Positions 31,691-33,645 of a stretch of 64,000 nt of DNA are shown here, piece after piece. The DNA lies in NCBI RefSeq assembly GCF_009902005.1, contig NZ_WUTT01000001.1, forward strand, positions 621,501 through 685,500, in the 5' to 3' direction. The translations under genes and the position numbers were made by a program. The notes under the pieces are model-generated. The model was not told the origin of the DNA. It searched no databases and saw only the letters and a list, made by a program, of their open reading frames with translations. The DNA comes from Halomonas alimentaria. Lineage in GTDB: Bacteria > Pseudomonadota > Gammaproteobacteria > Pseudomonadales > Halomonadaceae. Numbering within the stretch: position 1 is the stretch's first letter; each line of letters starts with the position of its first letter.

Positions 31691-31801
31691 ATGTATCTGG
31701 ATGACGCCGTAATCTTCGGGTTGGTCACCGTCGCGATGATGATCGCTTTCATGGGTGGCTGGATTGCCTTCATCGTGCGGGACCACCGCAAGAAGCACTG
31801 A
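31691..31801 (+). CDS. 36-residue single-helix membrane protein, CcoM-like
   Basis: This small gene encodes a start of MYLDDAVIFGLVTVAMMIAF, then a hydrophobic stretch to about residue 29, ending RDHRKKH. Residues 8-29 form one membrane helix with an acidic N-terminus and a basic C-terminus. GGGGAGGA lies 7 bases before the ATG, and a strong terminator follows the stop. The pattern of acidic start, VI-GLVTV core, FI end and basic tail resembles, from memory, CcoM, the small subunit of cbb3-type cytochrome oxidase in Pseudomonas. The FNR/Anr-type promoter supports a low-oxygen respiratory role. The family assignment is inference. Confidence 0.65.
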   Translation: MYLDDAVIFGLVTVAMMIAFMGGWIAFIVRDHRKKH

Positions 31802-31853
31802 AGCCAGCCGCAGCACGAGTCGTCAGGGGAGGGGGGAGTTTTTCCCCCCAGTG

Positions 31854-31883
31854 GGCCGACCTTCACGGGTCGGCCTTTTTTTT
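31854..31883 (+). terminator. Intrinsic terminator
   Basis: GGCCGACC (31854-31861) and GGTCGGCC (31868-31875) form a perfect 8-bp stem with a 6-base loop, followed by eight T. This is the clearest Rho-independent terminator in the window. It ends the small membrane-protein transcript. A weaker G6/C6 hairpin precedes it at about 31832-31849. Confidence 0.93.
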
Positions 31884-32029
31884 CGTGTGTGATCAGCCGG
31901 TGTCGCGGTTCGGCAACGCCCGTGGAACAAATCGACAACGCTTCTCCGGCGGCGGCATCTCGCGGCCTCAGTGGCTAGGATGAACAGTGTTCGATCATGA
32001 CACTGCTCGCCGAGCCGCAGGAGGTTCCC

Positions 32030-32446
32030 ATGTCACACCACGAGCATGAAATCGAGGCCGCCGAGACCCATCGCCGGCGTCGGCGCCGGCTCCTCGCCAC
32101 CCTCGGCGTGGGTCTGGCCGGTGCCTATGTTGCCCCCACGCTGTTCAGCGTCGGCCAGGCCCAGGCCTGGGATGGGCGCCGCCGTTCGCGTCCCAGTCGC
32201 TCCCGGCCAAGCTGGTCGCGCCCCAGCCGCTCCCGGCCCAGCCGCTACGACGGCGCCTATCGGCGGCACGAGCGGGCCCGCCAGGAGCGCCACTATCGCC
32301 GCGGCGATGACCGCTATCGCCGGGACGACCGCTACTACTCGCGGCGTGAATACGAGCACGACCGTCGCCGGCTGCGCGATTATCGTGAAGACCCGGTGAC
32401 CATCGTCGAGGATATCGTCTTCGGTCGCCCCGATCGCCGCTGGTAA
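32030..32446 (+). CDS. Arg/Ser-rich protein with Tat-like signal, unrecognised
   Basis: This 138-residue protein has a His/Glu-rich start, a run of six Arg followed by LLATLGVGLAGAYVAPTLFS, and a likely cut after GQAQA. This resembles a twin-arginine signal. The mature part has RPSRSRPSWSRPSRSRPSRY, then Arg/Tyr/Asp-rich sequence to the end. The ATG at 32030 has AGGAGG at 32019-32024. The stop codon overlaps the next gene's ATG by one base (TAATG), so translation is coupled. The repeated Arg-Pro-Ser units offer many Ser residues to the kinase-like partner downstream. No function is known to me, and an exported structural or cofactor-binding protein is also possible. Confidence 0.7.
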   Translation: MSHHEHEIEAAETHRRRRRRLLATLGVGLAGAYVAPTLFSVGQAQAWDGRRRSRPSRSRPSWSRPSRSRPSRYDGAYRRHERARQERHYRRGDDRYRRDDRYYSRREYEHDRRRLRDYREDPVTIVEDIVFGRPDRRW

Positions 32447-33645
32447 TGGTCGACGCCCAGGATATTTCCCTGCCCGGCCTCGGACGCATTCTGCGCGTGC
32501 AGGAGGCGCCCGAGGTCGTCGCGGCCCTGAGCCAGGCGTTGCCCGGCTGGCCACTCTCCGTCGCGCGTGCCCGGGGCCTGGCACCGGCCATCCGCCTGCG
32601 GCGCAGTCGCGGAGGCTATCTGCAGCGCTCGCCCCAGCTGCCCCGAGGTCTCGAACTGCCGACGCCGGCCTCGGCGGTGTGCAGCCTGATCGCGGATCTG
32701 GGTGGCGAGTGTCTCGATCGGGATGGCTCGCTGTTGGGCCTGCACTGCGCCAGCGTGGAGGTGGATGGCCGCCTGGTGCTGTTTCCCGAGAGCCATCGCG
32801 CCGGCAAGAGCACCCTGGCGGTGGCCTTTGCCGCGGCCGGTTACCGGCTGTTCGGCGATGATGTGCTGGGCCTGACGCGGGAAGGGAATGGCGTGGGCCT
32901 GGGCATCGCGCCTCGGCTGCGCCTGCCGCTGCCCCAGACGTTGGCTCCGGAGCTCCTCGACTATGCCGAGGCCCATGCCGGCCCCGAGGATGCCCGCTAC
33001 CGCTTCGTGGTGCCGCCCGGGAATACCCTGGCTCGCCATGGCGAATCGGGTCCGGTGGGGGCGCTGGTGCTGCTGGAGCGTGATGACCAGGCGAGTATTC
33101 CCGAGGTCGTCCGGCTTCAGCCGCGAGAGGGGCTGTTGCAGCTGCTCTCCCAGAACTTTGCCCGGCATGCCGCTCCCGAATCGCTCATGGCACACCTGCT
33201 GCCGCTGCTGCAGCGCGTGCCCTGCCTGCTGCTGCGCTATGCCGAGCCGCTGGCAGCGGCTCGCCACCTGGGCGCCGTTCTCGCGGGTGAAAAGGGCGAG
33301 GTCGGTCAGGGAGAGAGCGACAGGTTCGTGGTGGCCAGGCGTGAGGCCTCGCCGCCTAGCGGCCCGGTGCCCGCAGGGCGGCGCTGGCGGGCAAGGCATG
33401 AGGTACGACGCTATCCCCTGGGCCACGAGCTGTTCCTGATCCAGCCCGCCAGCGGTGTCATCCACCGCCTCAACGCCACCGGCGAGGCGGTGTGGAGACT
33501 GCTGTGTCAGGAGCCGCTCAGCGGGGAGGAGCTGGGGGAGCTGTTGGCCGAACACTTCGGTGAGCCGCTCGAGTCGGTCAGCGAAGATGTCGGCTGGTTG
33601 CTGGCGGGGCTTGCCGATGCCGGCTTGGTGGCTGCCGTCGAGTAG
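32446..33645 (+). CDS. HPr kinase-like protein fused to a PqqD domain
   Basis: This 399-residue protein has an HprK-like nucleotide-binding region at about 105-150: a P-loop in LFPESHRAGKSTLAVAFAAA followed by YRLFGDDVLGL. The C-terminal 90 residues (LGHELFLIQPASGVIHRLNA, WRLLCQEPLSGEELGELLAE) form a PqqD-like domain, the peptide-recognition fold of many RiPP pathways. HprK-related kinases and PqqD proteins are known to occur side by side, and some lasso-peptide clusters use HprK homologues to phosphorylate a Ser of the precursor. Here both are one polypeptide, coupled to an Arg/Ser-rich peptide gene. Peptide modification is therefore a reasonable hypothesis. No glycosyl or radical-SAM gene is adjacent. 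Confidence 0.75.
   Translation: MVDAQDISLPGLGRILRVQEAPEVVAALSQALPGWPLSVARARGLAPAIRLRRSRGGYLQRSPQLPRGLELPTPASAVCSLIADLGGECLDRDGSLLGLHCASVEVDGRLVLFPESHRAGKSTLAVAFAAAGYRLFGDDVLGLTREGNGVGLGIAPRLRLPLPQTLAPELLDYAEAHAGPEDARYRFVVPPGNTLARHGESGPVGALVLLERDDQASIPEVVRLQPREGLLQLLSQNFARHAAPESLMAHLLPLLQRVPCLLLRYAEPLAAARHLGAVLAGEKGEVGQGESDRFVVARREASPPSGPVPAGRRWRARHEVRRYPLGHELFLIQPASGVIHRLNATGEAVWRLLCQEPLSGEELGELLAEHFGEPLESVSEDVGWLLAGLADAGLVAAVE

Follow-up and report, generated by a model that had tools for sequence, protein, structure and literature searches.

A predicted HprK-like kinase fused to a PqqD-type recognition element and paired with a Tat-like signal peptide in Halomonas alimentaria and scattered proteobacteria

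HPr kinase/phosphorylase (HprK) has a folded carrier protein as its substrate. Relatives of this kinase occur in lasso peptide clusters, where HprK homologues phosphorylate a C-terminal Ser, according to the available part of PMC8498205. In a 2025 survey, the recognition sequence listed for lasso RREs is YxxP, and that for groups including FusE, McjB and PqqD is W/Y/LxxP/L/I (PMC12710340, available part). HPr-rel-A (TIGR04352 HprK_rel_A, TIGR04353 PqqD_rel_X) likewise combines an HprK-related kinase with a PqqD-type partner. In the Bacillus spore coat, the CotH kinase phosphorylates many Ser residues in the Ser/Lys/Arg-rich repeat proteins CotB and CotG encoded by neighbouring genes (PMC7821199, available part). 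No paper combining two of HprK, PqqD and Tat signal was found, and none on HPr-rel-A, in literature searches that left subscription papers and preprints mostly beyond their scope. PqqD together with an HprK-related kinase was the subject of none of the matches listed. The word 'kinase' is absent from the main text, as available, of the RRE-Finder paper PMC7470986 and of PMC12710340.

The locus described here lies in a 64,000-nucleotide stretch of the Halomonas alimentaria genome, referred to below as the window. It comprises a peptide gene and an enzyme gene that overlap by one base (TAATG), as the original prediction had stated (Table 1). The peptide has a run of Arg, a hydrophobic region that includes YVAPTLFSVG, a probable cleavage site between AQA and W, and four SRPS units. 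The motifs of a Tat substrate (twin arginines, a hydrophobic segment and AxA) are present; TIGR01409 does not match the window peptide and does match its homologue in genome G460. The pair is followed by a convergent lytic transglycosylase gene and preceded by CcoM and FKBP genes. The CcoM assignment concerns a 36-aa ORF (window 31691-31885) matching this cytochrome oxidase subunit at 58.8 bits (cut-off 40). A hairpin and T run after the ORF look terminator-like by eye.

Table 1. Positions in the window of the peptide gene, the enzyme gene and their parts.
Feature	Position	Strand	Basis
Ribosome-binding site AGGAGG of peptide gene	32019..32024	+	sequence
Peptide gene, 138 aa; Tat-like signal, SRPS repeats and Arg-rich tail	32030..32446	+	homologues aligned
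Arg run (aa 15-20) in Tat-like signal	32072..32089	+	R18 and R19 invariant in 16 aligned rows
YVAPTLFSVG (aa 33-42), candidate RRE docking motif YxxPxL within signal	32126..32155	+	alignment, published motif, controls
Four SRPS units (aa 53-71), predicted kinase substrate region	32186..32242	+	substrate role inferred
C-terminal segment EDPVTIVEDIVFGRPDRRW, final RW as in most aligned homologues	32387..32443	+	alignment
Enzyme gene, 399 aa; HprK/PEPCK-fold P-loop domain (predicted) and PqqD-type RRE	32446..33645	+	
His100, aligns with conserved His of HprK	32743..32745	+	22/22 rows; HprK alignment
GKS of P-loop (aa 120-122)	32803..32811	+	22/22 rows; HprK alignment
Asp138-Asp139, align with DD of HprK	32857..32862	+	22/22 rows; HprK alignment
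PqqD-type RRE domain (aa 328-395)	33427..33630	+	PF05402, TbiB1 profile, structure comparison

The fusion of an HprK-like P-loop region to a PqqD domain, proposed in the original prediction, was confirmed by the PF05402 match, the predicted folds and the kinase-type residues. The enzyme C-terminus scored 39.9 bits against PF05402 (gathering score 23.4). Its RRE domain matched the TbiB1 profile with an E value of 9.1e-8, and the model of this domain superposed on 5v1v (TbiB1) with a TMt of 0.85 and an rmsd of 2.1. The P-loop part is confidently predicted to adopt the HprK/PEPCK fold, and an extra N-terminal part aligns with PEPCK in the structure model. Sequence similarity to HprK was weak (E 0.0018 to 0.11). 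The kinase residues that had been anticipated for this protein are present: the His, GKS and DD of HprK are in place in all 22 rows of the enzyme alignment and align with those of HprK.

The enzyme was rejected as a member of HprK_rel_A or of classical HprK on scores below the cut-offs, namely 12.3 bits against Pfam Hpr_kinase_C (gathering score 33.3) and 34.5 bits against TIGR04352 (curated cut-off 200). The score against TIGR04353 was 27.1 bits (cut-off 35). No HprK_rel_A match was found in the window genome at E≤1e-20, and the enzyme was the sole match to itself there at E≤0.001. It differs from HPr kinase/phosphorylase in its sub-cut-off scores, its extra N-terminal part and its C-terminal RRE.

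Co-occurrence of the two genes was assessed in 151 genomes of the window's family, taken as Halomonadaceae. The fusion was matched at all in 28 of these and at full length in 20, and the peptide gene lay directly before the full-length fusion in 20/20, so that the expected pairing in relatives was found. In the other 131 genomes neither the enzyme nor the peptide was strongly matched. A peptide profile scored at least 75 bits in precisely these 20 and no more than 30.1 bits in the remaining 131; as 14 of the 20 peptides are rows of that profile, the independent part of this result is the other 6 together with the lack of a strong match in the 131. Chance pairing was rejected, the naive probability of identical sets of 20 in 151 being about 2e-25, a figure inflated by the relatedness of the genomes and by the 14 peptides that were themselves rows of the profile. 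The 20 genomes are spread over four genera, with 4/24 genomes of the window's own genus among them.

Beyond the family, a 22-row enzyme profile was matched in 12/398 phylum genomes and 8/369 class genomes at E≤1e-12, and in 4/199 and 7/12 genomes of two further samples at E≤1e-30; in these searches and in those of the family, only part of the first-look candidates was scored per genome, which limits how absences are to be read. Strong matches (E≤1e-30) outside the family were found in 16 genomes, and the peptide adjoins the enzyme in 12 of them (G460, G476, G596, G688, G864, G883, G885, G903, G919, G1065, G1066 and G1067). In G903 the peptide lies downstream and the contig stops before the enzyme. 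No such peptide was found with the diverged enzymes of G166, G1071 and G1072 (133-158 bits), nor in G889, where the enzyme gene is 5'-truncated and broken. Weak enzyme matches in G278, G274, G364, G151 and G568 (48-57 bits) also had no such peptide; an upstream Tat-like frame in G568 has no YxxP. Kinase and PqqD are two overlapping genes in G919 and apparently separate in G596 too, so the enzyme occurs in split as well as fused form. The two-gene unit is found in scattered proteobacteria.

Gene surroundings of the pair vary by lineage across the 18 neighbourhoods listed. Inspection of these by eye revealed no third gene common to the loci, and no lasso protease or cyclase genes were recognised. 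Some individual loci had further features. A methyltransferase-like gene (by eye) lies directly upstream of the weak HprK-like match in L085 and L086 (G278 and G274), and in G274 a PqqD-like match comes after it. In G903 a Ser/Gly/Arg-rich Tat-type protein (L133:1296-2063, reverse strand) carries an additional domain at its C-terminus that looks PepSY-like by eye, and a response-regulator-like gene comes next.

For the peptide family, 46 rows were collected. Seven spurious frames, three S8 proteins and L081 (a second, non-adjacent peptide of G688) were dropped, leaving 35 adjoining peptides. All 35 carry YxxPx[LMF] inside the hydrophobic region of the signal; the motif was used to collect the rows, and 26 of the 35 had already been found in listings that did not use it (12 + 7 + 4 + 3, the last three from plasmids). 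Other Tat signals served as controls, and 0/44 carried the motif: 0/17 TIGR01409 signals of the window genome and 0/27 signals extracted from six other enzyme-bearing genomes. The latter set derived from 78 Tat matches, from which 30 loci were fetched; L202, L210 and L227 gave no signal, and the doubtful frames L208 and L209 were kept among the 27.

Each of the 35 peptides is accordingly an adjoining precursor-like protein with a known RRE recognition motif, as in RiPP systems. Given the motif in 35/35 peptides, its agreement with the published RRE motif and its absence from the 44 controls, the Tat signal probably doubles as an RRE leader. The original prediction had allowed that the signal might act only in export, a reading that this probable second role disfavours. 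Its more general proposal of leader recognition by the PqqD domain has gained a specific candidate motif, YxxPxL, with binding itself a prediction.

Tail composition was tabulated for 14 residues over up to 80 residues past the predicted cut in the 35 tails. Ser made up 10-38% of every tail, and no other tabulated residue reached 10% in all. Arg was 0% in two tails, L082 (SGG repeats with an acidic end) and L084 (SVP repeats), Pro was 0% in several, and Gly ranged from 2 to 53%. Tail versions include YSRPS, SGRGG, GSRGS and SVPSVP, with a KSRSRSRS tail in G919; in the window tail Arg (35%) exceeds Ser (11%). The Arg-Pro-Ser units suggested earlier as substrates are present in the window as SRPS, a predicted substrate region. 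The two tails without Arg and the several without Pro led to rejection of Arg or Arg-Pro-Ser as a target across the family, Ser being the residue common to all tails. Tails end in Trp or other residues. Short conserved closing segments (EDIxxGxPxRW, IEIRxSRxLPRW, NILLHPSRW), mostly with final RW, were noted in the window peptide (32387-32443) and its homologues.

A second type of protein with this leader was found on plasmids of Paracoccus and Shinella, where four adjoining genes encode an ECF sigma factor (on the opposite strand), an S8 protease, a Ser/Arg/Gly-rich Tat peptide and the fusion. The same leader (YATPTL or YAAPAL) was present on the S8 protease beside the enzyme in 4/4 read of six records, followed in these four by a Ser/Arg linker of net charge +7 to +12. 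For comparison, 19 S8 relatives were taken, from plasmids only, where the enzyme was not detected. In all 18 with readable N-termini (L192 was unreadable) the leader is missing and a run of 4-15 Asp is present; for L165 and L196 the check for YxxP was by eye only. A second S8 protease on another plasmid of Shinella WSD5-1 is among these 18. Three of the Asp-run linkers are not net acidic (L162 +3, L163 +1, L197 0), and some also contain Ser. The replacement of encoded Asp by Ser where the enzyme is present is compatible with phosphorylation; the six records represent two lineages, and the Asp/Ser swap rests on these two.

The S8 protease as a general third part of the system was rejected, since 15/28 enzyme-bearing genomes, the window's included, had no S8 match at E≤1e-10; no such leader was seen in the family S8 N-termini examined by eye. 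An ECF sigma/S8 protease module with Asp-run linkers after the signal was also noted as such on alphaproteobacterial plasmids (L158-L165, L167, L168 and L189-L197). Its neighbours on two Aminobacter plasmids are DUF4956 and a polyphosphate polymerase gene.

Against this background the relation to the described systems can be specified. Lasso tailoring kinases accompanied by a PqqD-like B1 protein, for example in the paeninodin cluster, share with the window system an HprK-like kinase, a PqqD-type RRE, a YxxP leader and, by the prediction made here and as far as the available sources describe them, a Ser substrate. The window system differs in having kinase and RRE in one protein, in a motif that lies in a Tat-like signal, and in a repetitive tail whose final residue is not Ser. 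CotH with CotB/CotG resembles the predicted mode of the pair in that a kinase is encoded beside a Ser-rich repeat protein. In the available part of PMC7821199 the CotH fold is eukaryotic-type and Fam20C-related and no RRE or Tat leader is mentioned, whereas the window system has an HprK-like enzyme, an RRE and a Tat-like leader.

HprK_rel_A matches were obtained in 47/249 genomes searched, and 20 loci were read. A Tat-type protein lay upstream in 17/20 by reading and in 12 by regex; HprK/PqqD systems with Tat-type substrates may therefore be a broader theme. In HPr-rel-A the kinase and its PqqD-type partner are encoded separately, with another large ORF after them, whereas the window enzyme is a fusion, and the HPr-rel-A Tat proteins have no YxxPx[LM], about four Cys and low Ser, unlike the window peptide family. 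These Tat-type proteins (L169-L188) have a signal resembling RRRRLLKGL..GVPxIxTL and lie upstream of a PqqD-like gene and the kinase. Twelve of them, read over their full length, contain 3-4 Cys each, and the ending of most is SCWxSF or a comparable sequence. The window pair is predicted to represent a new and compact form of HprK-like peptide kinase guided by an RRE.

The mechanism that we favour, with somewhat better than even confidence, is that the PqqD domain docks on YxxPxL in the Tat-like signal and the HprK-like domain phosphorylates several tail Ser residues before export. The TAATG overlap would couple translation of peptide and enzyme. The RRE would bind YVAPTLFSVG of the signal, as the published motif and its invariance suggest. 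Tat proofreading chaperones hide the signal until maturation is done, and by analogy docking would also mask the signal until modification is complete. Fold, residues and tail composition point to transfer of phosphate onto Ser residues spaced by Pro or Gly. Tat export would follow, and a signal peptidase cut after AxA would remove the docking motif, so that no dedicated protease or transporter would be needed. The product would be an exported, charge-patterned phosphopeptide, with metal binding, envelope charge patterning or neutralisation of a cationic peptide before export as candidate roles. Several observations weigh against this mechanism: the weak sequence similarity to HprK, the window tail with far more Arg than Ser, the TIGR01409 profile missing the window peptide, the three diverged relatives that lack such a peptide, tail ends unlike the C-terminal Ser modified by lasso kinases, and an Asp/Ser swap known from two lineages, with some Asp-run linkers that also hold Ser or are not net acidic.

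An enzyme that docks on the same signal might instead carry out another modification: nucleotidyl transfer, formation of phospho-Arg, or addition of a Ser phosphate that enzymes from other loci then glycosylate or eliminate. The P-loop part falls under all curated HprK cut-offs, the window tail is Arg-rich, and kinase products in lasso clusters can be further glycosylated (PMC8498205, available part), all of which agree with this. Retention of the HprK His, GKS and DD, the occurrence of Ser in 35/35 tails with two tails lacking Arg, and the lack of a common third gene in the 18 neighbourhoods (by eye) make it unlikely. We consider it decidedly improbable that the kinase domain has another target, with the small protein a mere regulator or sensor docking on the RRE via its signal. 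HprK itself acts on a folded protein, and a PqqD domain can act purely as a docking element; yet the Ser-plus-spacer composition of the tail is kept despite wide sequence variation, and an adjoining S8 protease with the same leader and a Ser/Arg linker is what would be expected of a second substrate.

It is also conceivable that YxxPxL merely reflects the structure of this family of Tat signals and that docking, if any, occurs elsewhere on the peptide. The motif sits in the hydrophobic region, other Tat signals also contain Pro, the Tat proteins of HPr-rel-A lack the motif yet have a PqqD-like partner, and the lengths and sequences preceding the signal vary among the aligned homologues. This reading appears quite improbable given that 0/44 control Tat signals carry YxxPxL, that it occurs on S8 proteases beside the enzyme and is absent from their relatives, and that it is identical to the recognition motif published for RREs of the matching type (PMC12710340, available part).

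Docking on the signal followed by phosphorylation of tail Ser thus remains the preferred mechanism. Its fullest form, to which we give an even chance, is that the product is an exported polyphosphoserine polyampholyte for which the signal serves as RRE leader and signal peptidase as leader peptidase, and that the alphaproteobacterial protease has phosphoserine in place of poly-aspartate. Such a product would be the bacterial equivalent of phosphorylated SR or CotB/CotG repeats, made by a kinase of unrelated fold. If the proposal is true, a Tat signal can be the recognition leader of a peptide-modifying enzyme, and export and maturation would therefore use one sequence and only two genes. HprK-like kinases with an RRE would gain a substrate class that can be found by its motif, a Tat signal with YxxPxL followed by a Ser-rich tail. 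The S8 proteases would offer a natural comparison of encoded charge (Asp runs) with predicted post-translational charge (phosphoserine) at one position of a protease family.
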